IMG/VR virus record: IMGVR_UViG_3300009168_000012
Span: 1 to 59,401 of that record
Direction: 5' to 3' (one strand)
From: a virus
Length of the DNA: 59,401 nucleotides
Within the stretch, counting starts at the first letter, position 1. Each line of letters begins with the position of its first letter. The notes under the pieces are model-generated. The model ran no database searches and was not told the origin of the DNA. It worked only from the letters and a program-made list of their open reading frames with translations. Both the position numbers and the translations under genes were made by a program. This document shows positions 4,457-41,725 of this stretch, one piece after another.

Positions 4457-4468
4457 ACCTCACACCAC

Positions 4469-4500
4469 AACCAACCCTGAAACATGGGTTGGTTTCTTTT
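4469..4500 (+). terminator. Rho-independent terminator
   Basis: The stem AACCAACCC / GGGTTGGTT with an 8-base loop is followed by TCTTTT. It ends the DUF932 transcription unit. Confidence 0.85.
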
Positions 4501-4521
4501 AACTTTTATCCAATAATTATC

Positions 4522-4749: not shown

Positions 4750-4758
4750 CAATAAAAA

Positions 4759-4790
4759 TTTGGACGGAATCACAAGGAAACATATTTTTG
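4759..4790 (+). promoter_or_regulatory. Bacteroidota-type promoter
   Basis: TTTG at 4759-4762 and TATTTTTG at 4783-4790, 20 bp apart. The transcript would start close to the leader AAAAATTCTCATAA of the gene at 4812. Confidence 0.8.
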
Positions 4791-4811
4791 AAAAAATAAA
4801 AATTCTCATAA

Positions 4812-5162
4812 ATGGAAAGGCACTTAATTGATTTGATTGACAGGGTTGCAATCATAACTTATTACACTGACACAATCTTCAGCAAAGAAGTAAAAGATGA
4901 ATTTTCATTGCTGCAACAGAATTTGGTTGGAGCACATGAAAAGAAAAGGTTTAAGGAATTGAGTGATTTGCGTGGTGAATGTGTGGTGAGAATCCAAAAG
5001 ATTGAAATGGCATACACTGAAGGTGCAAGTGCAAGTGACACCTTCTTGCTTGGTGGTGATTATGAGAGAATCACAAAAGAAGTGGACAGGATTAAGAATG
5101 AAGAACGTGACCTTTTTTCACCAACCCTTGCCGATTACATGCAGGAGCAGTTGCCTTATTAA
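4812..5162 (+). CDS. Hypothetical helical protein, 116 aa
   Basis: Largely alpha-helical protein with many charged residues and no membrane segment. It has its own promoter 22 bp upstream and the common early leader, though with two extra bases before ATG. The sequence shows no catalytic signature. It is followed by the 56-residue gene at 5184 and may share its transcript. Confidence 0.7.
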   Translation: MERHLIDLIDRVAIITYYTDTIFSKEVKDEFSLLQQNLVGAHEKKRFKELSDLRGECVVRIQKIEMAYTEGASASDTFLLGGDYERITKEVDRIKNEERDLFSPTLADYMQEQLPY

Positions 5163-5183
5163 TTAACCTTTATCCATTAAACC

Positions 5184-5354
5184 ATGCCAAGCAGGAAGGA
5201 AGTAAAACATTGGATTTTCACTGTTATCAATGAGAAGAACAAACAGTGGGAAGAAATTAAAATCTCATCCATTGATGCTTATAATTTAGCACAAGCAAAA
5301 AGGATTGCAAGGAGAGTTGGCCCAATATTGAGTTGGCTCACCTTTTACCGATAA
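5184..5354 (+). CDS. Hypothetical basic protein, 56 aa
   Basis: Starts after CCTTTATCCATTAAACC, a variant of a recurring start-proximal motif. The protein MPSRKEVKHWIF...LTFYR is basic and contains a probable helix rich in arginine and lysine (AQAKRIARRVG). It could bind nucleic acid, but this is only inferred from charge. A weak stem (GCTTA / TAAGC) directly follows the stop. Confidence 0.6.
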   Translation: MPSRKEVKHWIFTVINEKNKQWEEIKISSIDAYNLAQAKRIARRVGPILSWLTFYR

Positions 5355-5446
5355 AAAACCCGCTTATGAATAAGCAGGTGTTCACGTTGTTTAATATTCA
5401 AGTGGGAAGAAAACCTAAAACATAATCAATAAAATTAAAAATTAAA

Positions 5447-6019
5447 ATGAATAAGCAAGAATTATCTGATAAAATTTCTGAATCATACATTGCAATCCAT
5501 GACCTTGAAAACAAGATAAGGGATGAAAAGGATAAAAGGATTGAGAAGGAATATGAACCTCTCATCATCCAAGCTGAAGCAGTAAGAAGGAAAATCACCC
5601 AAGAACTTCATGACAAATACAGGGATGAACTTTCAGCACTGAAAAATGTCAACTCAATATGGCACCACAAGCAGAATCAACTTAACATTGCTGAAGCTGA
5701 ACAAAGATGGTTGCCAAGTGGAACCATTGTGGACATTTATGAAAGGTCATACCGGGGAACCCAACCTTGGAAGAAAACCGGAATCGGGATGGTTCAGGTA
5801 TATGATGGAACACAAACAACCCTGCACCAACCAAAATACACAAGACTGAATGCAGGTGACATAATTGTCATCAAATACAGGAAGGATGGAACCCTTGGTG
5901 TCATGTATGACCTTGTGTTCAAAGGTGGCACCTTTCAGGGTGGAATGTGGTTGGCAGAAGGTGAAACACTGGAAGATAATAAATTGATGAATGGAAGAGT
6001 TTTAAAAAAATCTTATTAA
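5447..6019 (+). CDS. Coiled-coil plus beta domain protein, 190 aa
   Basis: Residues 1-65 form a charged heptad-like helix, probably a coiled coil, and the rest is glycine- and tyrosine-rich and likely beta-structured (GTIVDIYERSYRG, MVQVYDGTQTT, FKGGTFQGGMW). I do not recognise the family. No membrane or signal segment is visible. It stands alone, with an AT-rich gap upstream and the small HTH-like gene 18 bases behind it. Confidence 0.7.
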   Translation: MNKQELSDKISESYIAIHDLENKIRDEKDKRIEKEYEPLIIQAEAVRRKITQELHDKYRDELSALKNVNSIWHHKQNQLNIAEAEQRWLPSGTIVDIYERSYRGTQPWKKTGIGMVQVYDGTQTTLHQPKYTRLNAGDIIVIKYRKDGTLGVMYDLVFKGGTFQGGMWLAEGETLEDNKLMNGRVLKKSY

Positions 6020-6037
6020 CTTTTTAAAAAAAATATT

Positions 6038-6259
6038 ATGACCAAAAAAATCAATGCAAATGCAATTGACATTCTTCAGAACATTATGGAAGAAAGGAAC
6101 TGGCATGCATCCCTTGGAATTGACAGGAGATTAGCATGTGAATATAAACGGAACCTTCCCAAAGGAAAAGTCTCTTATGAAAAAGCATGCAAACTTCTGG
6201 AAGGTCTTGGTTTTGCAAAAATCAGGGAAGAAACATGGGAACCTTCACCTGCTTATTAA
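6038..6259 (+). CDS. Putative small HTH DNA-binding protein, 73 aa
   Basis: Residues about 24-57 (RNWHASLGIDRRLACEYKRNL..KVSYEKACKLLEGLGF) have the spacing of a Cro/C1-like helix-turn-helix: a first helix, a turn at LGID, a basic recognition helix and a closing helix ending LGF. It could regulate early genes. It differs from the other HTH-like protein at 44094. The call rests on a pattern read by eye, so confidence is moderate. Confidence 0.5.
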   Translation: MTKKINANAIDILQNIMEERNWHASLGIDRRLACEYKRNLPKGKVSYEKACKLLEGLGFAKIREETWEPSPAY

Positions 6260-6320
6260 ATAACTCTTATCCAATAAGAAGGTCATGCTGAAAAAAAACT
6301 TTGAAAAATGACAAAATAAA

Positions 6321-6351
6321 TTTGGACATGTGAAAAGGTGTCATATCTTTG
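6321..6351 (+). promoter_or_regulatory. Bacteroidota-type promoter
   Basis: TTTG at 6321-6324 and TATCTTTG at 6344-6351, 19 bp apart, followed by GTATCTCACA. It drives the gene at 6389. Confidence 0.9.
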
Positions 6352-6388
6352 TATCTCACAATTCAGAAAAAAACTTAAAAATTCTCAC

Positions 6389-8945: not shown

Positions 8946-9371
8946 ATGACACTTTCAGCACAACTTAACAGAATCAGGGTTCAACAGGCAATCAGCAAAG
9001 CATTCAACAACACTGAAGCAACAATCATCAATGGCATGCAAACTTATTCTTCAATCAATGAAGCATTCAAAAATGGTTCAGGTGACAGGTTCTTCACAAT
9101 CAATGGAAGATATGTTGCACTGTCAAGACACCTTGACAATATTGAAGAAATGATTGAACGTGGTTTCACCTTCATGCAGTATGAAGAAGTAATCATTGCA
9201 TCTTCAGTCCTTGTGGCCACAATGGATGGCAACCCTGAAGTCCAGTTAAGACAAAATGGTGACAGGTGGTGGATGATAAGCAACAAAACCGGAATGCACA
9301 CAATCAGCAGTCCAGAACTTGACACAAGGGTTTATGCACACTGGAACCAATTCCAACAAAACCAAAACTAA
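8946..9371 (+). CDS. Hypothetical protein, 141 aa
   Basis: Promoter-proximal gene, starting 25 bases after the -7 box. Mixed helical and beta protein (RVQQAISKAFNN at the start, a central region ending RWWMISNKTGMHT). No cysteine, no membrane segment and no known motif. A 10-bp hairpin follows. Probably an early protein expressed from its own promoter; function unknown. Confidence 0.75.
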   Translation: MTLSAQLNRIRVQQAISKAFNNTEATIINGMQTYSSINEAFKNGSGDRFFTINGRYVALSRHLDNIEEMIERGFTFMQYEEVIIASSVLVATMDGNPEVQLRQNGDRWWMISNKTGMHTISSPELDTRVYAHWNQFQQNQN

Positions 9372-10352: not shown

Positions 10353-10778
10353 ATGGAAGATTCCACAAATGTTCCACAAAAGAAAAATGGTGGGTATAAA
10401 AAACTGAATGGAGAAGATGGAAAACACTTTTCAAAAGATTATCAACCGTCAAATGCAGTCAAGCAAGCAGGTTGGGACAGGAAGAAATTCACAAGGCAAG
10501 TCCTGAAGGAAATGCTTGACATGAAGTACAAGTTTTCAGCCAAATCACCAATCAAAAAATCATTGGTTGCTGCTTATGGTGAACAAGTGCTGGACATGAC
10601 TGTTGGACAATTGATGGGACTTCAGCAAATGGAAAAGGCAATCAAGAAGAGTGATTCAATTGCATTCACTGCAATGATAAATCAGGCACTTGGAATGCCA
10701 AAACAAGAAACTGAAATCACTGAAAGGAAGATTGTTGTTACCCGAAAAAAAGATATTGAATTAAATGAAGGAAGTTGA
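10353..10778 (+). CDS. Probable small terminase subunit or terminase-associated protein, 141 aa
   Basis: The call comes from position: it directly precedes, and overlaps by 14 bases, the large terminase gene. The N-terminus is disordered and glycine/lysine-rich (PQKKNGGYKKLNGEDG), the middle is helical and basic (WDRKKFTRQVLKEML) and the tail contains a short strand (RKIVVTRKK). Small terminases bind the packaging site and hand DNA to the motor. No classic helix-turn-helix is obvious, so another packaging-related protein is possible. Confidence 0.6.
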   Translation: MEDSTNVPQKKNGGYKKLNGEDGKHFSKDYQPSNAVKQAGWDRKKFTRQVLKEMLDMKYKFSAKSPIKKSLVAAYGEQVLDMTVGQLMGLQQMEKAIKKSDSIAFTAMINQALGMPKQETEITERKIVVTRKKDIELNEGS

Positions 10779-12426
10779 AATTGATGAAGGAATTTATCTT
10801 GATTGTTTTCAACACCTCATTGACCTTCATGATGACATTGACATTGAATTGATTTTTGGTGGAAGGGATTCAGGGAAGTCAAAATTTGTTGCTCAACTTT
10901 TCAGTGAAGCATGCATGTCACTTCCTTACTTCAGAGCATTGCTTATCAAGCAGACTTATGAAAGCATAAAGGAATCCCAATGGCAAATGATAAAGGACAA
11001 TGTTGAAGATTGGGATTGCAATGAAATGTTCACCTTCCTTGTCTCACCCTTATCCATTAAATGCTTCAATGGAAATTCCATGCATGCAAGAGGTATGGAT
11101 AATCCTTCACAAATACGTTCATTCACCAATCCTTCACATGCTTGGATTGAGGAAGCAAACCAACTGAATGAAGATGCTTTTGTCAATATCCTGACAGGTT
11201 TAAGAAGTGATTATGGGAGGGTGAAATTATATCTAACTTTTAACCCTGAAGCAACAACACCTGATTACACTGATTTTTGGATTTACAAAACCTTTTATAA
11301 AGCACATGAACCCAATGTCAACTTCACCGGAAACATTGAAGTGAAATACATTAAGGATGGCAAGGAAAAAACTGCTGTTCTGAAATATCGTTCAACCCAT
11401 GTCACTTATCAGGACAATCCATATGCAAGTCCACAAAGAATTGCATTCCATGAAAGTCTTAAACTGAACAATCCTTATTGGTACAGGGTGTTCACATTGG
11501 GATTGTGGGGAAATGTTGAAAATGATTCACCTTGGGCATTTGCTTTTAAACGTGACAAGCATGTGAGCAATGGTGTCAATATCCCTCATCCAATCCTTGA
11601 CAGGAACCATGAGGTTTATTTATCGTGGGACTTCAACCGCAACCCAATGACATGCACTGTCATCCAATGGTTTAATAATATTGTGAAGGTGCTGGAAGTG
11701 GTAAGGATTCCCAAAGGTGGTGTTGATGGTGTGTGTGAATATGTGCTTATCAAATATCCTGCATGCCTGTTCATTGTGACAGGTGACTACAATGGGAACA
11801 ATGTATCATCTTTATTTCAGGAGCAGGTGACACATTACTTATTGATTAAGCATTACCTGAAATTAAGTGACAATCAATTCAAGGTTAAACCAAATCCTTC
11901 CCAAGCAAAAAACTCAACTCATATCAATTCAGTGCTGGCATATTACAATGTCATCATTCATGGCACTGATGCAAATTCCTTGGTGTTTGATTTGGAGAAT
12001 GTAAAAAGGAGAGCAGACGGAACCATTGTGAAAACTGACAGGAACAACCCTGCACAACAATCAGATTCCCTTGACTGCTTCAGGTACTTTTGCAATGCCT
12101 TTTTGGATTGGTTTAAACCTTTACCGGAAAATAATAATGACAGGTATCAGTTACTTAATAAGGTAAACCCGACAAATGGAACCATTATTGATGAGCAGAA
12201 GTTGCTTCAGGATAAACTGAACAGCATTGTCAAACCATTGAACCCATTTATTGCAAGTGTGGAAGCTGGAAGACACATTGAATGCACAACTGAACAATAT
12301 ATTTCATTCATTCGCAATGACTTAATAAATAAAGCAACCAAATGGATTGAACAGAATGAACTTCCAAGAGCAAGATTTGCAATGGAGGAAGTGAAGAGAT
12401 TGGACAAAAAGCACTTACCTTCATAA
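10765..12426 (+). CDS. terL: Terminase large subunit (packaging ATPase-nuclease), 553 aa
   Basis: DNA-packaging motor. The ATPase half shows a Walker A motif GGRDSGKS at 32-39 and a Walker B/catalytic glutamate at AWIEEAN (126-132). The nuclease half shows three acidic sites expected of the RNase H-like fold: D289 in SWDFNRNP, D341 in VTGDYNG and D434/D437 in QQSDSLDC. A C-terminal extension of about 110 residues is helical. Length and motif spacing are normal for phage TerL. The gene overlaps its upstream partner by 14 bases and is followed by a strong terminator, so terminase forms its own unit. Confidence 0.95.
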   Translation: MKEVEIDEGIYLDCFQHLIDLHDDIDIELIFGGRDSGKSKFVAQLFSEACMSLPYFRALLIKQTYESIKESQWQMIKDNVEDWDCNEMFTFLVSPLSIKCFNGNSMHARGMDNPSQIRSFTNPSHAWIEEANQLNEDAFVNILTGLRSDYGRVKLYLTFNPEATTPDYTDFWIYKTFYKAHEPNVNFTGNIEVKYIKDGKEKTAVLKYRSTHVTYQDNPYASPQRIAFHESLKLNNPYWYRVFTLGLWGNVENDSPWAFAFKRDKHVSNGVNIPHPILDRNHEVYLSWDFNRNPMTCTVIQWFNNIVKVLEVVRIPKGGVDGVCEYVLIKYPACLFIVTGDYNGNNVSSLFQEQVTHYLLIKHYLKLSDNQFKVKPNPSQAKNSTHINSVLAYYNVIIHGTDANSLVFDLENVKRRADGTIVKTDRNNPAQQSDSLDCFRYFCNAFLDWFKPLPENNNDRYQLLNKVNPTNGTIIDEQKLLQDKLNSIVKPLNPFIASVEAGRHIECTTEQYISFIRNDLINKATKWIEQNELPRARFAMEEVKRLDKKHLPS

Positions 12427-23387: not shown

Positions 23388-25370
23388 ATGCCAACAGTAA
23401 TATCACCACAAGAATTAAAAGCAAGGTTCACAGGTTTTAAAGTAAACCTTATATATCAGGATTCAATTGACCTTTATGCACAATTAAGAGTTCATGCAGA
23501 TGGTGAAATGCCAATCAGATTGATAAGGGAACAGCGACCAAATGAAAGTGATGCAGTGCAAAAATACAGGCAATCAATTTATGAACCTGAAACACAAAAC
23601 CCAATTGAAAAGGTGTTGGGAGTTCTGGAAAAAATCAGGAGGTCACCTGATTGGATGATGCAATTTTCAGATGACATTCCACCAATCATCAATGAGGAAG
23701 AAACCTTGGAAATATACCTGACCAAGAAATATCCCATTTATGATGACATTGAATATTGGTTATTTGAAGAGGTGTTGAGGACATTGGGATTGGATGCAAA
23801 TGCTGTCATTGCAGTATTGCCAAAAGATTTTGCACAACAGGAGGGAACTGAATACATGCAACCAATTGGACAGGTATTCAATTCACCCAATGTGATTGAG
23901 TTCATCCCTGAAGATTATGCAGTGTTGAAGAGTGATGAATTAAGTTCCATGCTGTCACCTGAAAGACAGATGCAGATTATGAACAACCAAAAAGCATTGC
24001 AGACACTTACTTCAGGTGCAAACACTTTTTCAAAAGGACAAGTTTATTATGTTATCACAACCTCATCATATCAGAAATGGGAAGAAGCTGAAGATGGGAA
24101 ATATTTGCTTACCAATACCATTATGCATGGACTGAATGAATTGCCTGTCTTTCAGGTGCCGGGAAAATTCATGGCAAGAAGAGGGCCATATACCTTAAAG
24201 AAGACACCACTTTTTCCAATGGTTCCACACCTGAATAAAGCAGCAAGGGAATCAAATGATTTGGATGCAGGTGTCATCATGCACCTGTATTTGGAAAAGT
24301 GGAGGGTGAACAATATTCCATGCACTGATTGTCATGGAACAGGACAGGTTGCAGGTGCAGATGGCCCAACCACTTGCCATGTATGCAAGGGAACAGGGTA
24401 TGCAACAGGCAAGTCACCTTTCAATGAAATATTAATCCGTCCACAAGGATTGGGAGAGGGTAATATTCCAACACCACCTGTTGGGTATGTTGACAAGAAT
24501 CCTGAAATTCTGAAGGTGCAGAATGACAGGATTGAACTGCATTTGAGAAAGGCACTTGCTGCTGTCAATATGGAACACTTATCTGAAACAGGGATGAACC
24601 AATCAGGGACAGCAAAAGCATATGACCAAGATGAGGTGAACAATGTCATTTATACTTTTGCTGGAATGCTTGTAAGTGTTGCAAACACCACTGCTTACTT
24701 CATCAATGAATTAAGGTACAAAAACATTGTTCCCAATGAAGATGACCGGAAAGCAATGTTGCCAATCATCCCGATTCCAGAGAAGTATGATGTGGTAAGC
24801 ACTTCATACCTGTTCAGTGAATATCAGACTGCAAAAAGTGCAGGTATCAACCCAATCATTTTGACAGAAATGCAAAAGGAGATTGGTGCAAAGAAATTTT
24901 ATGCCAATCCAACAGTTGCAGATTTTGTGAACACTGTCATGAACCTTGACCCATTTCCAGATAAAACAACTGAAGAAAAAGGACAGATGGAATCACAAGG
25001 ATTGGCGGCAAAGATTGATGTTGTGTTGAGCAATTACATAAATGATTTTGTAAGGAGAGCAATGGAGGAAGACAAGGATTTTGCCAAGAAGAGTGATGCT
25101 GAAAAGCGGGAAGTGCTGGAAGAATATGCTGCTGAAAAGGTGGAAGAGTTATCTGCTGCATCCCAAATCAAGACAGACCTTTTTGGTGATGAGGAACCAC
25201 CTGCTGATGAAGAACCACCTGAAGGTGTTCCACCTGTTGAGGGTGAGGAACCGGAAGAAGAGGAAGTTGGTAAACCTGCACCACCTGCAAATGTTCCAAG
25301 GACAGCAACAGGAAAGGCACCATTCCCTGCTGCACCTGCAAAGCAAGCAGTTGCACCACCTGCAAAATAA
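23388..25370 (+). CDS. Portal protein with an inserted DnaJ-type zinc finger, 660 aa
   Basis: Dodecameric channel at the head vertex. The call rests on position (just before a MuF-type gene), size and internal character: a long helical stem region around 370-450 containing LRKALAAVNMEHLSETGMNQ, and an acidic, proline-rich tail. Residues 312-333 hold two CxxCxGTG-like repeats, CTDCHGTG and CHVCKGTG, exactly the DnaJ/TSI zinc-binding pattern. The last 80 residues (EEPPADEEPPEG and on) are low-complexity. The start at ATG 23388 follows the glycosyltransferase stop by six bases. Confidence 0.75.
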   Translation: MPTVISPQELKARFTGFKVNLIYQDSIDLYAQLRVHADGEMPIRLIREQRPNESDAVQKYRQSIYEPETQNPIEKVLGVLEKIRRSPDWMMQFSDDIPPIINEEETLEIYLTKKYPIYDDIEYWLFEEVLRTLGLDANAVIAVLPKDFAQQEGTEYMQPIGQVFNSPNVIEFIPEDYAVLKSDELSSMLSPERQMQIMNNQKALQTLTSGANTFSKGQVYYVITTSSYQKWEEAEDGKYLLTNTIMHGLNELPVFQVPGKFMARRGPYTLKKTPLFPMVPHLNKAARESNDLDAGVIMHLYLEKWRVNNIPCTDCHGTGQVAGADGPTTCHVCKGTGYATGKSPFNEILIRPQGLGEGNIPTPPVGYVDKNPEILKVQNDRIELHLRKALAAVNMEHLSETGMNQSGTAKAYDQDEVNNVIYTFAGMLVSVANTTAYFINELRYKNIVPNEDDRKAMLPIIPIPEKYDVVSTSYLFSEYQTAKSAGINPIILTEMQKEIGAKKFYANPTVADFVNTVMNLDPFPDKTTEEKGQMESQGLAAKIDVVLSNYINDFVRRAMEEDKDFAKKSDAEKREVLEEYAAEKVEELSAASQIKTDLFGDEEPPADEEPPEGVPPVEGEEPEEEEVGKPAPPANVPRTATGKAPFPAAPAKQAVAPPAK

Positions 25371-25432: not shown

Positions 25433-26380
25433 ATGGCCACACCTGATGATATTTTGAACACAATCAAGGAAGCTGTTGACAGGTTGGGAGCAATGGCAAC
25501 AGCAAAACAGAATCCACTTTTCAAGGAAGTGCTTTTGCTGCTGAAGAAACTTGATGTGAAGGGTGACACCATAACCACCAATATCAGGAACCTCAACCTG
25601 ATAAATGAGTTGAAGAGCAAGATTGAAAGGATTGTTATTGACCCAAGGTATAAAAAGGAACTGAAGACCTTTGTCCAAGCATATGACCAAGTGGGGATTT
25701 TGCAGAATCAATATTTTGCATCCTTCAACACCAACTTCAAACCCAAACCTGTCATGAATGCCTTGAAGAAGAATGCAGTCAACACCACATTGAACAACCT
25801 CACCCAAGCAGGTTTGCAAGCAGGTGTGACAGATGGATTGAGAAAAATCCTTGTGACCAATGTGAATGCAGGTGGTTCATATGCAGATATGCAGGAGCAG
25901 TTGAGGAATTACCTGACAACCACCAACACAGGAGAAGGAGCATTGGAGAGATATGTCAAGACTTATGCCAACACTGCAATCAATCAATTCAGTGCTGAAT
26001 ACAGCAGGACAATTGCACAAGATTTGGGTTTGGAGTGGTATCAATACACAGGAAGTCTTATCACCACTTCCAGAGATTTTTGCATTCATTCAATTGACAA
26101 AAGATACATGCATGAAAGTGAGTTTCCAACCTTGCTTCAAGGGAACATTGATGGAACTCAAATTCATGTCAATAAAAAAACTGGACTTCCAGACGGAATG
26201 ATGGAGGGAACCAACCCTGAAAACTTTCCAAGAAGAAGAGGTGGTTGGAATTGCAGACACCAACTTGTGCCTGTTGATGAATTGCTTGTGCCACAACAAG
26301 TGAAGGACAAGGTGTATGCAACAAGGGATTATCAAACTTGGTTATTAAGTAAGGGTAAGACAGCAAGCAATGTGAAATAA
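25433..26380 (+). CDS. Minor head protein, MuF-type (SPP1 gp7-like), 315 aa
   Basis: The C-terminal region carries the MuF domain pattern: a helix YANTAINQFSAEYSRTIAQDLG, then WYQYTGSLITTSRDFC, and at the end GGWNCRHQLVPV, the conserved G-W-x-C-x-H motif. Such proteins sit inside the head by the portal and are sometimes ejected. The N-terminal 180 residues are helical. It is preceded by TAATAAGTAACTGTTA, a short element repeated before other genes. No extra toxin or nuclease domain is attached. Confidence 0.85.
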   Translation: MATPDDILNTIKEAVDRLGAMATAKQNPLFKEVLLLLKKLDVKGDTITTNIRNLNLINELKSKIERIVIDPRYKKELKTFVQAYDQVGILQNQYFASFNTNFKPKPVMNALKKNAVNTTLNNLTQAGLQAGVTDGLRKILVTNVNAGGSYADMQEQLRNYLTTTNTGEGALERYVKTYANTAINQFSAEYSRTIAQDLGLEWYQYTGSLITTSRDFCIHSIDKRYMHESEFPTLLQGNIDGTQIHVNKKTGLPDGMMEGTNPENFPRRRGGWNCRHQLVPVDELLVPQQVKDKVYATRDYQTWLLSKGKTASNVK

Positions 26381-26381
26381 A

Positions 26382-27014
26382 ATGTGTAAGGATAAATTTG
26401 ATTTACCAACAGATTCAGGTGATTATTACTTATTGACAAAAGGTGTGCAGTTGTCAAAAAATGTTTCAGGTGTTACCATTGAGATTGGTTTAAGGAGAGG
26501 TGGAGGAAGCAGGTTTGTCATTGATGCAATTGCTGATTTTTGTCCAAAAAAAGTTCATGTGGCAGTTGACCCATATGGTTCAATCTTGTATGCTGACAGG
26601 GATAACAACAAGACAAGGTTGGATTATTCAAATGAAATGGCAGGTGAAGCATTGCCCAATGTTTATGCTTATGCTCATCTTAAAAAAGTAAGGTTTATTT
26701 TTTGGCAACTGGAAGATGCAGAATTTTTTGAAAGGTTCAAAGATGGCATTCCCATTTATGAGGGTGAAAAGGTAATTGAAAGCAAATATTCATTTGTTCA
26801 TATTGATGGGCCACATGACACTGCAAGTGTGCTGAATCAGGTTAAGTTTTTTTTATTAAGGATGGAGCAAGGTGGGTGCATTTGTTTTGATGATATTCAG
26901 AATTATAATCACCAAAAAGTTGAACAGGTTCTTTTTCCAGAGTTTCAGTTAATTGAGAAAACGGATTGCAAAGCATTGTATCAAAAAAGCACCTTTTCAG
27001 GTGCCTTCAGTTAA
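26382..27014 (+). CDS. Class I SAM-dependent methyltransferase, 210 aa
   Basis: The Rossmann core is visible: TIEIGLRRGGG (32-42) as the SAM-binding glycine loop, VAVDPYG (60-66) as the next acidic motif and FVHIDGPHD (138-146) followed by GGCICFDDI. This resembles Methyltransf_24 / TylF-type enzymes, which methylate small molecules or sugars. The IDG-H-D and FDD motifs could bind a metal. There is no DPPY or IPC motif, so it is not a standard DNA methyltransferase. It starts two bases after the head gene, suggesting modification of virion sugars, perhaps with the glycosyltransferase at 22548. Confidence 0.8.
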   Translation: MCKDKFDLPTDSGDYYLLTKGVQLSKNVSGVTIEIGLRRGGGSRFVIDAIADFCPKKVHVAVDPYGSILYADRDNNKTRLDYSNEMAGEALPNVYAYAHLKKVRFIFWQLEDAEFFERFKDGIPIYEGEKVIESKYSFVHIDGPHDTASVLNQVKFFLLRMEQGGCICFDDIQNYNHQKVEQVLFPEFQLIEKTDCKALYQKSTFSGAFS

Positions 27015-27035: not shown

Positions 27036-27377
27036 TTATGCAGGTTTGATTGTTTCAATGAACTGGAAGAACATTTTCTTCCCTGATGGGGAGTGAAAAT
27101 AATTCCTGTCAAGCTGGAAGTTTTCAGACATGATTTGGAACCCATGACCATACACCTCAATCAGGTGCAGGGTTTGTCCAAATTCATTTGCCTGTTCTTG
27201 CCATGTTGCAACAAGTTCCCTGCTGTTTATCCAAGATTGGTTGATGCTGAATTGGTCACTGTCAAAAGCATATGCATGGTGCAACATGGAGTTGGTCATA
27301 TGTGCTGCTTTTTTACCTTGTGCAGCAAATGATTCTTTAACTTCTGGACTGATGAAAGGTGCTTGTGGATTGCTCAT
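27036..27377 (-). CDS. Hypothetical protein, 113 aa, reverse cassette
   Basis: The start was placed at the ATG behind AATAAAAATTCTCACA on the reverse strand rather than further upstream. Soluble, mixed composition with several histidines and glutamines; no motif recognised. It is the last gene of a reverse-strand chain (28589 to 27036) that meets the forward methyltransferase gene head-on with 21 bases between the stops. Function unknown. Confidence 0.75.
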   Translation of the reverse strand: MSNPQAPFISPEVKESFAAQGKKAAHMTNSMLHHAYAFDSDQFSINQSWINSRELVATWQEQANEFGQTLHLIEVYGHGFQIMSENFQLDRNYFHSPSGKKMFFQFIETIKPA

Positions 27378-27402
27378 TGTGAGAATTTTTATTGGGTAAT
27401 TG

Positions 27403-27573
27403 TTAATTGGTTTCCTGAACTTTCTTTTTGGCAACTTCAGATTCAATTTGAATCATCAACTTTTCTGCATCCTTTTGGGTTCCAATGAATGCTGCTGTTT
27501 GTGCCAACCTTCTCAATGAATAAGTGATAAGGTCAATTTCTGATTGTGTAAGTTCCAAGGTGATTTTTTTCAT
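27403..27573 (-). CDS. Hypothetical protein, 56 aa, reverse cassette
   Basis: The reverse-strand ORF begins MKKITLELTQSEIDL and ends KKKVQETN, a small helical protein. The start follows AAAAATTCTCACC, the shared leader, which is strong evidence that it is real despite its size. The form LxLTxSEIDLI resembles small helical phage proteins of unknown role. It lies 25 bases upstream of its neighbour in the same direction. Confidence 0.7.
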   Translation of the reverse strand: MKKITLELTQSEIDLITYSLRRLAQTAAFIGTQKDAEKLMIQIESEVAKKKVQETN

Positions 27574-27602
27574 GGTGAGAATTTTTAGATTGTTTTAAAA
27601 GT

Positions 27603-27623
27603 GCAGCAGGTGATTCCTGCTGC
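27603..27623 (-). terminator. Hairpin between reverse-strand genes
   Basis: GCAGCAGG / CCTGCTGC with a 5-base loop. On the reverse strand it follows the stop of the 27638-27862 gene and is followed by ACTTTT; on the forward strand TTTATTG follows. It may terminate weakly in both directions. Confidence 0.6.
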
Positions 27624-27637
27624 TTTATTGTTAGTGA

Positions 27638-27862
27638 TTATTTAAGGATTATTTCTTCAAGTCCTGAACCGTAAATCAATTTAAATCTTTTTTCAACACC
27701 TTCAGTTGTTACAGTTGCCCAAAGTGTTTCAGTGGTTGGGCGAAATTCAAACTGCATTGCAAGTTTAAATTCAATGTAACTTGGATTAACATTCAAATCA
27801 GTGGTAATTGAATTGAACTGATAAGAACCTTCATAAAAATTGATAACTGTTTGAACTGGCAT
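27638..27862 (-). CDS. Hypothetical beta-rich protein, 74 aa, reverse cassette
   Basis: First gene after the reverse promoter at 27889-27919; the start ATG is 26 bases from the -7 box. Alternating hydrophobic stretches (VINFYEGSYQFNSI, YIEFKLAMQFEF, LWATVTTEGVEKRFKLIYG) suggest a small beta barrel. No recognised family. It is followed by a hairpin, then the 56-residue gene. Confidence 0.75.
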   Translation of the reverse strand: MPVQTVINFYEGSYQFNSITTDLNVNPSYIEFKLAMQFEFRPTTETLWATVTTEGVEKRFKLIYGSGLEEIILK

Positions 27863-27888
27863 GTGAGATATTTTTTAATTGTGAGACA

Positions 27889-27919
27889 CAAAGATAAGAG
27901 ACTTTTTCAATTGACCAAA
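27889..27919 (-). promoter_or_regulatory. Bacteroidota-type promoter, reverse strand
   Basis: Read on the reverse strand: TTTG (27919-27916), a 19-bp spacer, TATCTTTG (27896-27889), then TGTCTCACAA. It drives the 27862-27036 chain and shows that this cassette is transcribed against the structural operon. Confidence 0.9.
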
Positions 27920-27948
27920 TCTTTTTTGACATTTTTTGAAAAAAAGAT

Positions 27949-28341
27949 TTAGCACATATAATCACCAAAATCACAATTGGGAAGGGAACCTTGTGATTCA
28001 CAAAAGGGAACCCAAAAATTCAAATATCTCTGTCTTGCATTTTCATAATCAGGATTCCCAATGATATATGTCACACCACCATGAACCACTGAAGGTTGCT
28101 GTTCATAATTATAAACAGGGTTCCCAAGATATTCCATTGCTGCTTCAAAGTTTTTTTGGCATGGGAGGTAACACAAACCTTCATATTTTCCACCTCTGTC
28201 AAGGTGATTATGTCCTGTATTGACTGACTTGTAAACCTTAAGGATTGCTTTCTTAACGTCTTCAGGGAAGTGTGCAGGAATCTTGCTTTCAATTTCTGCT
28301 TTCCGTTTTAACCAATTATTTGTGCTGAATCTTCTGGACAT
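27949..28341 (-). CDS. Hypothetical protein, 130 aa, reverse cassette
   Basis: The start was placed at the ATG after AAAAATTCTCATC on the reverse strand, giving MSRRFSTNNWLKRKAE. It contains NTGHNHLDRGGKYEGLCYLPCQKN and ends with CESQGSLPNCDFGDYMC, so five cysteines and two close histidines could bind a metal. No family recognised. It lies between two reverse promoters and is probably read from the one at 28609. Confidence 0.75.
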   Translation of the reverse strand: MSRRFSTNNWLKRKAEIESKIPAHFPEDVKKAILKVYKSVNTGHNHLDRGGKYEGLCYLPCQKNFEAAMEYLGNPVYNYEQQPSVVHGGVTYIIGNPDYENARQRYLNFWVPFCESQGSLPNCDFGDYMC

Positions 28342-28358
28342 GATGAGAATTTTTAAGT

Positions 28359-28390
28359 GGAACCTGCATGGTGCAGGTTCCGGTTTTTTT
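28359..28390 (+). terminator. Forward-oriented terminator inside the reverse cassette
   Basis: GGAACCTGCA / TGCAGGTTCC around a 3-base loop, followed on the forward strand by GG and seven Ts. It would stop forward read-through from the structural operon before it passes deeper through the cassette. On the reverse strand it lies between two genes without a U-run. Confidence 0.75.
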
Positions 28391-28589
28391 ATTTTACTGG
28401 AATCCAAAGGTTTGCATTCAGGTATTTTTGAACTGTTGTCAATGCTTCCCGGTGAGGTGTTGCACCTTCCCATGAAGTAACAAACAATGATTTGTCTGTC
28501 ACCTTAACAACAGTTGATATTCCTGAAGGTGTACCATTACCATAAAATGTTTCAAACTTTTGTCCAACTTTAATTTCAGTGCTTTTCAT
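28389..28589 (-). CDS. Hypothetical protein, 66 aa, reverse cassette
   Basis: The start was placed at ATG 28589, about 20 bases after the -7 box of the reverse promoter; the in-frame ATG further upstream lies before that promoter. The protein reads KSTEIKVGQKFETFYGNGTP and then STVVKVTDKSLFVTSW, the look of a small SH3- or OB-like beta barrel. First gene of the cassette. Function unknown. Confidence 0.75.
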   Translation of the reverse strand: MKSTEIKVGQKFETFYGNGTPSGISTVVKVTDKSLFVTSWEGATPHREALTTVQKYLNANLWIPVK

Positions 28590-28608
28590 ATTTTCCCGTT
28601 TTGTTACA

Positions 28609-28639
28609 CAAAGATATGACTGCATTTTAATTGACCAAA
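28609..28639 (-). promoter_or_regulatory. Bacteroidota-type promoter, reverse strand
   Basis: On the reverse strand TTTG (28639-28636), a 19-bp spacer and TATCTTTG (28616-28609), followed by TGTAACAAAA. It is the main promoter of the reverse cassette. Confidence 0.9.
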
Positions 28640-28726
28640 TATATTTTGACAAAAAGGAAAATATTTTTTGTCTTGCTTTTTTATGACTGAATCCTTAACT
28701 TGATTCTTCCAATAAAATCAAAGGTC

Positions 28727-28963
28727 ATGGCATTCATTCATAAGACATTTTTGAGAGCAGAAAATTTCAGGTTCATTTATTCCCAAGCAAAAGCCAACAG
28801 CAAGGAAGGATTGGTGATTGGCATTCACAGGTGGAAACTTGGGGAAATGGTGGTTGGTGTTTATATCCTGTCAACAAACAGTTTGAGGTTCACTGAAGAT
28901 GGGAAAACCTTGAAAAGAAATACACTTCAGAAGATTAAGGAACAGGTGGTGAGACATGATTGA
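28727..28963 (+). CDS. Hypothetical protein, 78 aa, forward gene flanked by reverse genes
   Basis: The start was placed at the ATG after CCAATAAAATCAAAGGTC. A short beta-rich basic protein (FIHKTFLRAENFRFIYSQAK, LVIGIHRWKLGEMVVGVYIL). It stands back to back with the cassette promoter at 28609 and meets the reverse gene at 28965 with one base between stops. I find no canonical promoter of its own. Unrecognised. Confidence 0.65.
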   Translation: MAFIHKTFLRAENFRFIYSQAKANSKEGLVIGIHRWKLGEMVVGVYILSTNSLRFTEDGKTLKRNTLQKIKEQVVRHD

Positions 28964-28964
28964 T

Positions 28965-29159
28965 TCATTTATTAAGTGACTGCAACTTCAGGGTTTGCCA
29001 TTCCCTTATAATTCTGTAATACACTTCAGGACGTTTTAAAACAAGTCCTTCAGCAAATTCCAACCTGATTTGCTCTTCCTTGATTATCCTGTTTATATCT
29101 GATGGCAAGTTCCTTAACATGGAACTGGACACCTTTGGGTGGTTTTGTTTTTCCTGCAT
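28965..29159 (-). CDS. Small helical protein, 64 aa, possible DNA-binding regulator
   Basis: Reverse-strand gene starting at ATG 29159 (MQEKQNHPKVSSSMLR), 27 bases after a promoter-like TACTTTTG. The centre (LPSDINRIIKEEQIRLEFAEG) looks like the helical part of an Arc/ribbon-helix-helix or similar small regulator, but the strand is not clear. The inverted repeat at 29164-29195 in front of it would be a natural operator for an autoregulator. This is inference. Confidence 0.5.
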   Translation of the reverse strand: MQEKQNHPKVSSSMLRNLPSDINRIIKEEQIRLEFAEGLVLKRPEVYYRIIREWQTLKLQSLNK

Positions 29160-29218
29160 GCCTGTTACTTTTGAAACAACAGTTGCAAAAGTAACAACAC
29201 AAAAAGCAGAATCCCAAC
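29144..29218. promoter_or_regulatory. Overlapping opposed promoters centred on a 10-bp inverted repeat
   Basis: GTTACTTTTG (29164-29173) and CAAAAGTAAC (29186-29195) form a perfect inverted repeat with a 12-bp centre. Each arm contains a -7-like box TACTTTTG, one per strand. A -33 TTTG lies 18 bp upstream on the forward strand (29144-29147) and a GTTG 21 bp upstream on the reverse (29218-29215). The two promoters would exclude each other, one firing into 29273 and onward, the other into 29159-28965. Confidence 0.55.
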
Positions 29219-29272: not shown

Positions 29273-29605
29273 ATGGGAAGGATGCTGATGGTCACTGATG
29301 CAGTTGGAACTTTGCACAAGACACCACTTGGAAATAAACCAACTTACCAAAGCAGGAACCGGATATTGGGTGACAAGGCATATAAGATTCAGGAAATGGA
29401 AGAGACTGAAATTGATGATTTTATGGAGAAGCATGATGGGATTGACCCTGAATTTGTCACACCAAGCAAGGCAAATGAAATGATTGCATCCAAGGATGAC
29501 ACCATTAAGCAACTGCAAGCACAATTGGCTGCACTTCAGAATGGTGTTTCAGCAAAGGTTCAGGAAATCAAAGAATCTCAACAATTAAAAGGCAGTGTTA
29601 AATAA
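29273..29605 (+). CDS. Small protein before the scaffold, 110 aa
   Basis: The start was placed at ATG 29273 (MGRMLMVTDAVGT), because the longer frame starts inside the promoter region. The first 50 residues are beta-like and the last 50 a charged coiled coil (IKQLQAQLAALQNGVSAKVQE). It lies six bases before the scaffold gene and is probably a head-assembly accessory or decoration-like protein. The family is not recognised. Confidence 0.65.
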   Translation: MGRMLMVTDAVGTLHKTPLGNKPTYQSRNRILGDKAYKIQEMEETEIDDFMEKHDGIDPEFVTPSKANEMIASKDDTIKQLQAQLAALQNGVSAKVQEIKESQQLKGSVK

Positions 29606-29611: not shown

Positions 29612-30526
29612 ATGGCTCAATTTGGCAATCTTATAAAAAGTCTTGCAACCAAAGCAGGTTTGAAAGCTGATGATGAAACCTTAAAAAAAATCATGGCAAT
29701 TGCTGAAGTTTCAACACTGGAAGTGCCTGATGAATTTAACACTGCACTGGAAACAAACCTTTTGACAGAACAATCAGCAGCAGCCAACACCAATGTAAGA
29801 AGCAAGTTATTTGCAGAAGCATTGAATGGTGTTGATGTTGAACTTGAAAAATTTATCCCTGATTTTGAATTTGATGACACTTTCAAAACTGAATGGAAGA
29901 CCAACAAGAACACCAATGACAAGTTGAGAAAGTTGAATGCACAAATGAAAGTGCAGGTTGATAAAATCAAGGAAGCTGCAAAAACAGGAAAGCATGATGC
30001 AAATGCAGAAGCACAAGTATCTGCTTTAAAAGGTCAAATATCTGATTTGAATAAGCAACAGGAGAATCTTAAACTGTTGCATCAAACTGAATTGGATAAT
30101 TTGAAAAATCAGAACTTAACAGATAAAAAAAATTATCTGCTTCAAACAAAACTTGCAGGAAAACCATTACCCAAAAATGGTTTGGCTCCTGAAATAAATA
30201 TTTTAACGGCAAAGACCTTGCTTGAGCAAGACCTTGCAAAACACAACCTGATTATTACTTTTGATGGTAATGGTCAACCAATCTTGAAACAGCGAAAGGA
30301 TGGTGCTGATATTGACTTTTTTGTTGATAATAAGCAAGTGACTTTTGACGGTTTCATTGACGGCGTTTTGGCGCAAAACAAATTCGTTCAGGTACAAGAT
30401 TCTCAACCCGCAAACGGGCAGAATAAAACAGGACAACAGAATTTTGCACCAACACAACTACCTTCCAACCAATCGGTTGTTTCTTCCATTGATGCACAAT
30501 TGGCAGAATTGGGTGTGCAGGTGTAA
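29612..30526 (+). CDS. Putative scaffolding protein, 304 aa
   Basis: The call rests on position, directly upstream of the capsid gene, and on composition: a long charged helical centre (about 100-200) rich in K, Q and N, a leucine-repeated coil and a glutamine-rich tail, as in many phage scaffolds. The N-terminal 30 residues (SLATKAGLKADDETLKKIM) are helical. Scaffolds guide procapsid assembly and then leave. The last third carries a patch (30340-30420) with unusually many CG dinucleotides. A different head protein cannot be ruled out. Confidence 0.65.
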   Translation: MAQFGNLIKSLATKAGLKADDETLKKIMAIAEVSTLEVPDEFNTALETNLLTEQSAAANTNVRSKLFAEALNGVDVELEKFIPDFEFDDTFKTEWKTNKNTNDKLRKLNAQMKVQVDKIKEAAKTGKHDANAEAQVSALKGQISDLNKQQENLKLLHQTELDNLKNQNLTDKKNYLLQTKLAGKPLPKNGLAPEINILTAKTLLEQDLAKHNLIITFDGNGQPILKQRKDGADIDFFVDNKQVTFDGFIDGVLAQNKFVQVQDSQPANGQNKTGQQNFAPTQLPSNQSVVSSIDAQLAELGVQV

Positions 30527-30571: not shown

Positions 30572-31699
30572 ATGGCAAATGGTTTTGTTGCTGGACTTAT
30601 GTTAACCAGCAAGCAAGTTTTTCAGGGTGCAAATCCCTCTGAAAAAATTACACCCCCCGGTTATCTCAAATATCTTTTAAGCAATGGCAATCCCAATATC
30701 ATCAGCAATGGGATAAGTGATGGTTCAGGGCATGTTCGCAATGTGGTTATAAAATACCGACCAAGAACAATTCCCGGTTTATCACATACAGAAGATGACT
30801 GTTCTGTTCAGGCAAGTCCAGTGTATAAAGAAATGTCATTGCCACCACTGATGTTCAGGAAGTATGGTGTGTTCATTGATTATGAAACAATTGCCAAATA
30901 CGAACAGGAAGCAAGTGCAACTGTAAGGGTTGGCCGTCCAGCACCACCACAAGGAATCCTGATGGAGATTTACAATGCAGTGGTTGAATCTGCAAATGGT
31001 TTATTTGCTGACATTAACAATGACCTTCTTGCAATTCAGGTTGCAGCATTTGGAAAGAATCAAACCACCGGAAGCAATGCAGCCAAAACAGTCAACTTCC
31101 CATTAAGCACTGCAACCAACCCATTGACACAAGGTTTGACAATGCTGGCAACAGATGTGATGGCCAATGAAATCAAACCATTGAATTACACCATTGTTGG
31201 TGATGGGATGATTAATGCTGCTTATACTCAAATGAGGTATAACACCCAAAACACAACCCAACAGAATTATCCTTCAACATTCCCTCAATTCTTTTATGAC
31301 CCATACACTGCTGCAAAGTGGGGAGCAAACCAATTTGGTGTGTTTGAAAAGGATGCTGTTCAATTGGTGAATGTGACCAAATTCAATGGGTTTGTTGGTG
31401 GTGATAAAATGAGCACCTTCCTCTTCACAATGGAACTTCCTGTTGTGGATTCTGTTGGTGATACAACCTTGCAGTCTTTCCGTTTTGATGCACAGTTAAG
31501 GCATGTTGATTGCCCAACTGAAATGGAAATTGGAACAGGTGCAGGTGGTTATCCTGCATTGCAGTCTGTTGGGCGTGGTTGGATTCTTGACCTTATGGCC
31601 AACTATACACAAGTCAACATTGCTGCTGATGCTTACTTAACTGCTGACCGTTTAACAGGCAATAATGGGACATTAAGGTATGTTGCCACAAATGCATAA
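30572..31699 (+). CDS. Major capsid protein, 375 aa
   Basis: Assigned by context and size: it follows the scaffold, precedes connector genes and is of normal HK97-fold length. It has few charged runs, many aromatic residues and alternating hydrophobic strands. Segments such as KYRPRTIPGLSHTED, PLMFRKYGVFIDYETI and SVGRGWILDLMANYTQ fit strands and the spine helix. No protease is adjacent, so maturation probably uses no dedicated enzyme. Other large structural roles are less likely. Confidence 0.75.
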   Translation: MANGFVAGLMLTSKQVFQGANPSEKITPPGYLKYLLSNGNPNIISNGISDGSGHVRNVVIKYRPRTIPGLSHTEDDCSVQASPVYKEMSLPPLMFRKYGVFIDYETIAKYEQEASATVRVGRPAPPQGILMEIYNAVVESANGLFADINNDLLAIQVAAFGKNQTTGSNAAKTVNFPLSTATNPLTQGLTMLATDVMANEIKPLNYTIVGDGMINAAYTQMRYNTQNTTQQNYPSTFPQFFYDPYTAAKWGANQFGVFEKDAVQLVNVTKFNGFVGGDKMSTFLFTMELPVVDSVGDTTLQSFRFDAQLRHVDCPTEMEIGTGAGGYPALQSVGRGWILDLMANYTQVNIAADAYLTADRLTGNNGTLRYVATNA

Positions 31700-37856: not shown

Positions 37857-39338
37857 ATGCTTAAAGTTAATGGATGGGCGGCAATGAATGGTGGCACCAC
37901 CGGAGGGAAAGGAGGTGTGACAGTTAATGTTTCAAATGAAAATGATTTTAAAGCTGCTGTATCTGGAACCACACCAAAGATTGTGCAGGTGAATGGAACC
38001 ATTGCAATTGGATATGCAATGGTTGGTTCAAACAAAACCATTGTTGGTGTTGGCGTGGATGCAAAAACAATTGGGACAATCAGGCTTGAAGGTTCAAAAA
38101 ATATTATTATAAAAAATCTTAATACTTCAAATCCCAATGGTGATGGCATTGCAGCAGCAGGTGCAACCAATTTTTTCATCACTCATTGCACACCCAACAA
38201 TTGTTCAGACGGCTGTATTGATGTGACCAAGGGTTCAGATTATTACACCATTGAATATTGTAAGTTTTATTATGACCAAATGGCACTGCATAACTTTTGC
38301 AATTTGGTTGGTGCAAATGATGCTGAAACAGGTGACAAGGGAAAATTAAAAGGAACTTTTCATCACAACTTTTACTGGAAGTATTGTGCTGACAGAATGC
38401 CAAGGGTGAGGTTTGGACAGGTGCATTGTTATAATAATTTTTATGACCCTGCTGTTGACCAAAAGGTTTCTTCCCTGATAACTGCTGCAATTGGTTCAGA
38501 AGTGCTTGCTGAAAACAATCAGTTTGAATCAGGTGATGATGCTTTTGAAATCAGGGAAGATGGAAAGTTATTGGGAAGAGGGAACACATATGGTTCAAAA
38601 TATATTGGTGAGAAGAACAATGGAAATGCAACAAGTGTTTTCACACCACCTTACCCATATGATTTGAATGCACCTGAATCATTGGGACTTCTTGTGAGAG
38701 ACAAGGCAGGTGTTGATGGTGACAGTGATTTGACTGAAGGAAGCACAACACCCATTCCACAACCGGAACCTGAACCACCTGCTGATGAACCATTGGAACT
38801 GATTCTTGATGATGATGTGGTTGTTCAGTTGCCAAAGAATGTGCATTCCTTCACAGGGATTGTTGCCAAGCTGAAGGAAGGAAGTTATGATTTGAAGGTG
38901 ATTGTTTCAGGAGTTGGTGAAACTGTTGAGCAAACAAAAAAGATTCTTGTGTTGGGTGATAAGACAATCACACCACCTGAAGATTCAGCAGTGAAAGGAT
39001 TCAAATTAATCAATGCAGGGACAGACAGTGAAGTTGCAGATTTGGTGGAAGGTGGTTCATACAGTGTGTCACAATATGGCCCAAAAATAAATATTAAAGC
39101 ACAGGTTGATGACCTTGCAGTTGCCAATGTAAAATTCACCTTAAGTGGAACCCAATCAAAGGAATACATTGACAAGGGAAGACCATTTGCATTGCATGGT
39201 GATGATGGTCATGGGAATTATTATTATGGAACATGGAACCCACCACCATTGGGTAATTATAAGTTAATAGCAACACCAATTGATACAGCAGGAAAAGAAA
39301 TGGCTGGAAGGACAGTGAACTTTTCCTTCATCAGATGA
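37857..39338 (+). CDS. Pectate-lyase-like enzyme (polysaccharide lyase family 1), 493 aa
   Basis: The start was placed at ATG 37857 (MLKVNGWAAMNGG). A right-handed beta-helix with the PL1 hallmarks: SDGCIDVTKGSDYYTI (117-132) with calcium-ligand aspartates, GTFHHNFY (166-173), and RMPRVRFGQVHCYNNF (180-195), where R180 is the expected catalytic arginine. After about residue 300 a proline linker (PQPEPEPPADEP) leads to C-terminal Ig-like domains. It should cleave polygalacturonate or a similar uronic-acid polymer by beta-elimination. There is no signal peptide, so it is likely a virion-borne depolymerase. Confidence 0.85.
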   Translation: MLKVNGWAAMNGGTTGGKGGVTVNVSNENDFKAAVSGTTPKIVQVNGTIAIGYAMVGSNKTIVGVGVDAKTIGTIRLEGSKNIIIKNLNTSNPNGDGIAAAGATNFFITHCTPNNCSDGCIDVTKGSDYYTIEYCKFYYDQMALHNFCNLVGANDAETGDKGKLKGTFHHNFYWKYCADRMPRVRFGQVHCYNNFYDPAVDQKVSSLITAAIGSEVLAENNQFESGDDAFEIREDGKLLGRGNTYGSKYIGEKNNGNATSVFTPPYPYDLNAPESLGLLVRDKAGVDGDSDLTEGSTTPIPQPEPEPPADEPLELILDDDVVVQLPKNVHSFTGIVAKLKEGSYDLKVIVSGVGETVEQTKKILVLGDKTITPPEDSAVKGFKLINAGTDSEVADLVEGGSYSVSQYGPKINIKAQVDDLAVANVKFTLSGTQSKEYIDKGRPFALHGDDGHGNYYYGTWNPPPLGNYKLIATPIDTAGKEMAGRTVNFSFIR

Positions 39339-40448: not shown

Positions 40449-41725
40449 TTGATGCAATTATAACACCAACAGGAAACATTGTTGAAGTGACAATCACTGA
40501 AGATGGCAAAATCATAAAAGCATATCTTAATTGCAATGATGTTGGTGTTGGTATTCCCGGCCCAATTGGCCCAATTGGCGAACAGGGTGAGCAAGGTATT
40601 CAAGGTGAACAGGGAATCCAAGGTGAGCAGGGTGTTCAGGGAATCCAAGGTGAAAAAGGTGAGCAGGGTGAGCAAGGCATTCAAGGGATTCAGGGTGTTC
40701 AGGGAGAGCAGGGAATACAGGGTGAGCAAGGCATTCAGGGTGAGCAGGGTGATGCAGGTAATTCAACAAGTTTGTTTGAATACAATTACAACACAGCATT
40801 CACACCACCACCTTCAGTGGGAACATTCAGAAGCAATGGTGCATCAGCAGCAACTTCAACAATTGTTTGGATAAATAAAATTGACATAACAAATGCTGAC
40901 AGAAAAATATTTTTATTAGCTGGAAAAGCTGAAAGCATTTTTTATATCCAAGATGTTAATGACAGTGATATTTATGCAAAGTATAAGCTGACAAGTGATG
41001 CAACTGATGATGGAAATTATATCACCATGCATCTTGCATATCAGGAAGGAGCAGGTTCATTGATTGGCAACAACAGGTGTTTATTGGGAATATACACCCA
41101 AGGCAATACTGGCCCAATTGGCCCACAAGGAATCCAAGGGATTCAGGGTGAGCAAGGTGAGCAGGGTGAGCAGGGTGAAAAAGGTGAGCAGGGGATTCAG
41201 GGGATTCCCGGCCCACAAGGAATCCAAGGAAATCAAGGGATTCAGGGAATCCAAGGTGTGCCGGGGCCAAAAGGAGATAAAGGAGATATTGGAGATACAG
41301 GAGCAGGTTTTTCAGATGGTGACAAAGGTGATATGATTATAAGTGACAATGGTGAAACAATCACCTTGGAACAGAATTTAAAGATTGACAGCAAGGGTGT
41401 TGTTCTTGATGGAATGGGAACAGTGATAATTGCAGCAAATACTTCTTATGGTTTTTCAATCATTCCTTTTGCATGTAACATAACAGGGTGGGACGTAACT
41501 GCTGACCAAACAGGAAGCATTGTGTTTGATGTAAAAGTTGGTGGAACAAGTATCATTGGTGGAGGTAATAAACCAACCTTGACTTCACAACAGACCAATT
41601 CAGCCAATGTTTCAGGATGGACAGGAAGCAATGGTTTACCTGTTAATGCAAAACTTGAATTTATTGCTGTATCAGCAGCAGTTGTCACAAGGGTAACACT
41701 AACATTATATTTATTTAGATTATAA
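40445..41725 (+). CDS. Collagen-repeat tail fibre, 426 aa
   Basis: Two blocks of Gly-X-Y triplets: residues about 34-100 (GPIGPIGEQGEQGIQGEQG and on) and about 221-285 (GPIGPQGIQGIQG and on). The triplets favour Q and E and would form trimeric collagen-like stalks. Between them is a globular domain of about 120 residues and after them a C-terminal beta domain (about 140 residues) that likely trimerises or binds the receptor. Collagen stalks are common in phage fibres. It is coupled to the BppU-like gene upstream. Confidence 0.85.
   Translation: MIDAIITPTGNIVEVTITEDGKIIKAYLNCNDVGVGIPGPIGPIGEQGEQGIQGEQGIQGEQGVQGIQGEKGEQGEQGIQGIQGVQGEQGIQGEQGIQGEQGDAGNSTSLFEYNYNTAFTPPPSVGTFRSNGASAATSTIVWINKIDITNADRKIFLLAGKAESIFYIQDVNDSDIYAKYKLTSDATDDGNYITMHLAYQEGAGSLIGNNRCLLGIYTQGNTGPIGPQGIQGIQGEQGEQGEQGEKGEQGIQGIPGPQGIQGNQGIQGIQGVPGPKGDKGDIGDTGAGFSDGDKGDMIISDNGETITLEQNLKIDSKGVVLDGMGTVIIAANTSYGFSIIPFACNITGWDVTADQTGSIVFDVKVGGTSIIGGGNKPTLTSQQTNSANVSGWTGSNGLPVNAKLEFIAVSAAVVTRVTLTLYLFRL

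Follow-up and report, generated by a model that had tools for sequence, protein, structure and literature searches.

A toxin-less MuF-scaffold locus with a conserved reverse-strand gene in a family of Bacteroidota phages

Introduction

Why does a run of forward head genes contain a group of small genes on the opposite strand? The window analysed here is the IMG/VR record IMGVR_UViG_3300009168_000012 in its whole length (59,401 bases, 37.2% G+C), from a virus of Bacteroidota bacteria. An earlier note had read this layout as that of accessory "moron" cargo, where anti-defence or superinfection-exclusion genes are often found, insulated by its own promoters, early leaders and a forward-facing terminator. 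We examined the coding capacity and expression signals of this island, the content of the same site in relatives, and the known systems that it resembles.

Results

Layout of the island in the head module

As the note had described, six reverse genes and one forward gene (r1 to r5, f6 and r7, open reading frames within 27036-29159) interrupt the late head genes between the methyltransferase and the pre-scaffold (Table 1). The open reading frames were scored with codon statistics trained on the structural genes and compared with 42 non-coding control frames. Six of the seven outscored every control; the score of r1 was marginal, one of the 42 controls being higher. By the same measure, an upstream extension of r4 to 28473 was non-coding. 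The right edge of the island, which had been placed near 29218, was moved inwards: we set the start of r7 at 29159 because this start is conserved in relatives and a promoter box lies upstream of it. The statement that all other genes are forward held when open reading frames and codon scores were surveyed over the 59,401 bases, as no convincing reverse gene was found outside the island and the remaining positive-scoring reverse frames overlap long forward genes.

Table 1. Coordinates of the head genes, the island genes and their predicted signals in the window
Feature	Position	Strand	Remark
Portal	23388-25370	+	Name from gene order and conservation
MuF head protein	25433-26380	+	Name from gene order and conservation; left edge of hotspot; 37-residue C-terminal tail, without toxin domain
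Methyltransferase	26382-27014	+	Methyltransf_24 (Pfam)
Leftward terminator-like hairpin	26982-27005	-	GCACCT-GAAA-AGGTGC-TTTTTT, within methyltransferase 3' end; from sequence and fold
r1	27036-27377	-	113 aa orphan; marginal codon score, early leader present
Early-type leader of r1	27380-27391	-	TAAAAATTCTCA
r2	27403-27573	-	56 aa orphan
Early-type leader of r2	27576-27587	-	TAAAAATTCTCA
Hairpin between r3 and r2	27603-27623	.	
r3	27638-27862	-	74 aa orphan
Strong host-type promoter ahead of r3	27889-27918	-	
r4	27949-28341	-	130 aa orphan; codon score above all controls
Early-type leader of r4	28344-28355	-	TAAAAATTCTCA
Hairpin and T run, forward-sense terminator	28358-28390	+	On reverse strand, hairpin ahead of r4 leader
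r5	28389-28589	-	66 aa; kept (72% identical) in nearest lineage only
Strong host-type promoter ahead of r5	28609-28638	-	
f6	28727-28963	+	78 aa orphan; only forward gene of island
r7	28965-29159	-	64 aa; conserved anchor gene
Weaker host-type promoter of r7	29186-29217	-	TTG-N21-TACTTTTG; box at 29193-29186
Pre-scaffold	29273-29605	+	Name from gene order and conservation; right edge of hotspot, with scaffold; gene order kept in relatives
Scaffold	29612-30526	+	Name from gene order and conservation
Major capsid protein (MCP)	30572-31699	+	Name from gene order and conservation

None of the island proteins was recognised by Pfam, PHROGs or PADLOC, in agreement with the note, and PADLOC gave no match between r1-r7 and catalogued anti-phage defence proteins. 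Sub-threshold Pfam matches (for example SMI1_KNR4 for r4, E 0.14) were dismissed as chance. When 50,697 phage records were searched with the MCP, portal, r7 and r4 proteins and with the nucleotide sequence of the locus, nothing was found; the terminase alone gave matches, which were partial and for the most part of low identity. No relatives of r4 and r1 were detected in the scans of viral contigs.

Expression signals of the early type

Strong host-type promoters were defined by the pattern TTGG[AT]C-N-TAT[CT]TTTG, which occurs nine times in the genome against 0.03 expected in shuffled sequences. Of these sites, six fall within 1.3-8.9 kb, two lie on the reverse strand in the island (-28638 and -27918), and the ninth is at 56.9 kb; the island pair upholds the two host-type promoters that had been noticed there. 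The element TAnnTTTG corresponds to the -7 element of the main Bacteroidota promoter (PMC6847099). A second shared signal is the leader TAAAAATTCTCA, present in 10 copies (0.1 expected), each a few bases 5' of an ATG: five copies are early, two lie at 57-58 kb and three precede r4, r2 and r1, so that the island does share early leaders, as had been claimed. The early-type genes preceded by this 12-base leader occupy 1380-6387 and 57136-58032. The Bacteroidota are a phylum that does not use Shine-Dalgarno sequences. The leader is lineage-specific, since the near relatives G001 and G002 are without it. Neither strong promoters nor early leaders were found in the late region.

The order of these signals is also that of an early unit. 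In the island, promoter 27918 is followed by r3, hairpin 27603, a leader, r2, a leader and r1; in the early region, promoter 2178 is followed by a gene, hairpin 2473, leader 2521, a gene, leader 2949 and a gene. A second island unit consists of a promoter, r5, a hairpin and r4, with the forward gene f6 besides.

At 28358, a T run follows the hairpin in one sense only, the forward one, so that this hairpin would stop transcription arriving from the head genes. The forward-facing terminator proposed earlier does have its site here, but the terminator-like class to which it belongs is not above chance in this stretch (8 against 7.2). At the other end, the hairpin 27005-26982, which was missing from the list of the consensus terminator scan, would close the reverse unit by stopping leftward transcription. 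Judged from such signals, the insulation of the island by promoters and terminators is supported.

Turnover of the cargo in near relatives

The note had proposed to compare the locus in related phages, and had named conservation of the same genes in the structural operon of all relatives as the finding that would speak against accessory cargo. Searching with the MCP gave six contigs that fall into two lineages, with MCP identities of 88% and about 74%; at this site, contigs of one lineage are alike. In the nearest lineage the flanking head genes are 46-88% identical and the island is replaced. Nearly all the cargo differs between lineages: besides r7, kept in both, and r5, kept in the nearest, the island genes of the two near lineages are unrelated to those of the window, and no relatives of r1-r4 or f6 were detectable at this site in either. 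The position of f6 is only a short intergenic stretch in the nearest lineage. The methyltransferase is absent from both lineages and is thus also variable at this site. This counter-finding applies in part, since r7 is conserved in relatives, although r7 stands outside the structural operon.

These data bear on the possibility that the island genes serve in structure or assembly and merely chance to lie on the reverse strand. Their location among head genes and the constant place of r7 beside the scaffold would fit this explanation, but it is very improbable, as the reverse genes carry host-type promoters and early leaders foreign to the late region and turn over far more than the flanking head proteins.

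In G002, the 74% lineage, most island genes are forward and have their own promoters. One of them (11800-12135, locus L025) shares 57% identity with an early gene of the window (8946-9371), which indicates that the island and the early region exchange genes. Together with the early-type units, this exchange makes early-expressed accessory genes the best reading of the cargo.

Content of the site in deeper relatives

Scanning genome contigs with the MCP gave no hit. The deeper family was reached through an alignment of the terminase, by way of which more viral contigs and several Bacteroidota genomes were identified; among the latter is a chromosome with the title Chitinophagaceae bacterium DXS. 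With MCP profiles, MCPs were then located in these and in additional genomes: 3 of 296 genomes of a family sample, 8 of 398 of the order, 2 of 395 of the class and 1 of 395 of the phylum (taxonomy of Chitinophagaceae DXS), each count including the reference genome.

In the two near and 14 deeper lineages, the MuF-scaffold site is a hotspot with near-complete gene turnover. Small orphan cargo is found in the window, G001 and G002, and a small Cys-rich protein is common to L059-L062, L064 and L069. Glycosyltransferases, methyltransferases, RNA ligase and others occupy the site in L063, L065, L067, L068 and L071 (Pfam GT2, GT25, GT11, Methyltransf_24 and RNA_ligase in the scanned loci of this type). 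Clusters of GT2/GT11, methyltransferase, asparagine-synthase-like and RNA ligase genes lie at L067 6324-10346, L068 8962-13075 and L071 7547-11593 (L067 and L071 in MCP-forward orientation), and look as if suited to glycan modification. Three further loci, L073-L075, were set aside, as the scaffold and/or MCP-like genes there are surrounded by host-like genes and the fetched stretch contains neither portal nor MuF; they may be prophage remnants or domesticated capsid genes of Bacteroidota genomes.

The deeper relatives are prophages, and six of them have a Phage_integrase match. This raises the question whether the island is expressed from a resident prophage and benefits or protects the lysogen. 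The island genes have their own host-type promoters and are oriented antisense to the lytic genes, as is characteristic of accessory loci in prophages (PMC7067206). We consider this explanation quite unlikely: no Phage_integrase match was found in the record of the window, in G001 or in G002, records that may be incomplete, which, set against the six deeper relatives, makes prophage expression less likely. Furthermore, the island promoters and leaders belong to the class used in the lytic early region and not to a separate one.

MuF C-terminal domains and their partner genes

In many lineages the MuF protein carries a long C-terminal extension. Pfam domains above cut-offs were found in two of these (ADPrib_exo_Tox in L060, CdiA_C in L063), and HExxH-type motifs elsewhere. 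The toxin-like extensions include those of L060 (8325-9845), L063 (4876-6321), L025 (7690-9387), L064 (8164-9390), L070 (8029-9699), L072 and L067. In seven relatives, the reverse gene adjoining MuF co-varies with the extension, and three classes of matched pairs were distinguished: L059/L060/L062, L025/L064 and L070/L072. The capsid of L064 is 71-75% identical to those of the first class, yet its domain and partner are of the second class, as in L025 (capsid 47%). Similarly, L070 and L072, with capsids 32% identical, share a domain (46%) and a partner (37%). Matched pairs in lineages whose capsids are 47% and 32% identical show that domain and partner moved together. Such joint movement is typical of toxin and immunity genes. 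The reverse gene next to a MuF with a toxin-like domain therefore most likely encodes immunity, as judged from these sequence comparisons. The rule is incomplete, since L061 and L063 have an extension without an obvious partner. MuF toxins with adjacent immunity genes are already known (PMC5576092; PMC11699363). Apparent immunity genes at this site in seven relatives were not foreseen by the moron and anti-defence reading.

In the window, no toxin domain was found in the C-terminal part of MuF, and the MuF of G001 is likewise toxin-less; r1-f6 resemble none of the partner genes found in relatives. Polyimmunity has been proposed for MuF toxin loci (PMC11699363), and the orphans could be cast-off immunity genes that act against the MuF-fused toxins of related prophages, the phage having lost its own toxin domain; the beneficiary would be the infected cell or a co-infecting phage. 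The site and the gene sizes are those of the putative immunity genes of relatives, and the two toxin-less MuF proteins agree with such a loss. We nevertheless hold this explanation to be unlikely, because r1-f6 are unlike any partner gene found, and because early genes of a general kind are indicated by the early leaders and by the gene exchange with the early region.

The conserved anchor gene r7

An r7-like gene was found on the reverse strand, directly beside the pre-scaffold or scaffold, in 16 of the 17 lineages with a readable site; for L068, where the MCP lies at the opposite contig end, this placement presupposes that the contig is circular or permuted. In L066, both r7 and cargo are missing from the site. 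The r7-like genes encode 49-68 aa (in L065 the gene is part of a longer open reading frame), and those of L069-L072 were recovered with a profile that had not included them (E 1e-10 to 3e-17). In the two near lineages, the best segments are 80% and 53% identical to r7 of the window. In 14 of 16 lineages, the start of r7 is preceded, at a distance of at most 90 nt, by a TAnnTTTG box, for which the chance estimated from base composition is about 0.07 per sequence. Its fixed place and strand and the conserved box make r7 and its promoter the core of the locus.

The protein is predicted to form a two-helix hairpin with a low-confidence N-terminus (AlphaFold2, pLDDT 82-84). Sequence and fold searches against solved structures in the PDB gave no match of note for r7. 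An Arc/RHH protein was suggested by the pattern when read by eye, and neither fold nor sequence searches supported it; matches to designed alpha-repeat proteins in the PDB were also discarded, being helical and low in information, with no single stretch passing.

A perfect 11-bp inverted repeat at 29163-29197 (TGTTACTTTTG ... CAAAAGTAACA) extends across the -7 box in the promoter of r7 and is a candidate operator, not clearly conserved in G001. The fixed divergent position, the promoter and this repeat over the -7 box weakly suggest that r7 may be a small regulator of the locus. A bolder proposal, which we regard as doubtful, is that r7 founds a family of phage regulators with a host-type promoter in the head module, governing the locus and perhaps the onset of the head genes, and that it marks a general hotspot of Bacteroidota phages in which MuF toxin/immunity pairs, glycosyltransferase clusters and early takeover genes interchange.

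Discussion

Proposed nature of the locus

In our judgement, the island is probably the toxin-less version of a conserved reverse accessory locus, that is, the accessory part of a MuF-scaffold hotspot in a family of Bacteroidota phages, with r7 and its promoter as core. The cargo genes are probably expressed early and would have a counter-host or anti-competitor role, a role deduced from position and turnover. A leftward region driven by host promoters, with r7 as its first gene, would be set against the late head operon. Host RNA polymerase would transcribe it early in infection, before the late genes, and the hairpins together with the leftward terminator may separate the island from late head transcription. 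Its products would be directed at the host or at rival phages, in counter-defence, takeover or exclusion, and would not function in the virion. The genes beyond r7 are exchanged; in the window, units of the early kind fill the space, without a MuF toxin domain.

Some observations count against this explanation, namely the mixed gene orientation (mostly forward in G002), the marginal r1, a G+C content that is not distinctive, and the extensions of L061 and L063 without partner.

In a little-studied group of phages and prophages of Bacteroidota, the locus tells by position where uncharacterised accessory and toxin-immunity genes can be sought, namely between MuF and the scaffold and to the left of an r7-like gene. 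It also brings out a conserved reverse-strand gene in the head module of nearly all relatives, and candidate MuF toxin-immunity pairs that are directly testable.

Comparison with known systems

The locus is a variant of moron hotspots and of MuF toxin-immunity loci, relative to which the conserved reverse-strand anchor gene with its promoter is a new element. With the MuF loci (PMC5576092; Bxa of Bacteroides prophages, PMC11699363) it shares the site beside MuF in the head module and, in seven relatives, an ADP-ribosyltransferase-like or HExxH domain with a matching small neighbour. In contrast, the MuF of the window is toxin-less, its small genes match no partner, and the reverse-strand unit is led by r7.

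Phage morons and prophage accessory loci (PMC1524935, PMC7067206) likewise comprise small, variable, antisense genes with their own promoters and terminators; the island differs in having several genes and units instead of one, an anchor gene, early-type signals of the phage itself, and no integrase found. Of the features of lambdoid morons, a promoter and a terminator of its own are predicted, and all genes but r5 and r7 are replaced in both near lineages. The G+C content of lambdoid morons is also distinct from that of the surrounding phage genes. This mark is lacking: the island has 36.1% G+C, as has the early region, against 37.2% for the genome, and ranks near the 21st percentile among windows of its size. 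The moron reading of the earlier note is thus retained in part: variable content, a fixed site, own promoters and early-type signals agree with it, while the r7 core (16 of 17 lineages), the retention of r5 and the ordinary G+C do not.

The novel-ORF cassettes of T4-like phages (PMC1524935) also hold orphan genes under early promoters, with hairpins and a phage-like G+C, but the island sits reversed inside head genes. A composite promoter-stem-loop (PeSL) element, as cited in PMC4503421, was rejected for the island, where promoter and hairpin are not adjacent and do not form one element. Finally, the antiviral hotspots of P2 and P4 (PMC9122126) share a fixed site with exchangeable accessory content beside structural genes; they differ from the island, whose cargo is without a defence system recognisable by PADLOC and has early-type expression signals.

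Other features of the record

The terminase (10765-12426) matches Pseudanabaena phage Pan5, with 43% identity over half its length, the only close match among named phages. Pseudanabaena is an odd host for such a relative. Collagen-like repeats of 9, 18 and 27 bases at 40586-41202 likely belong to a tail-fibre gene, and a pectate-lyase-like protein is encoded nearby at 37857-39338.
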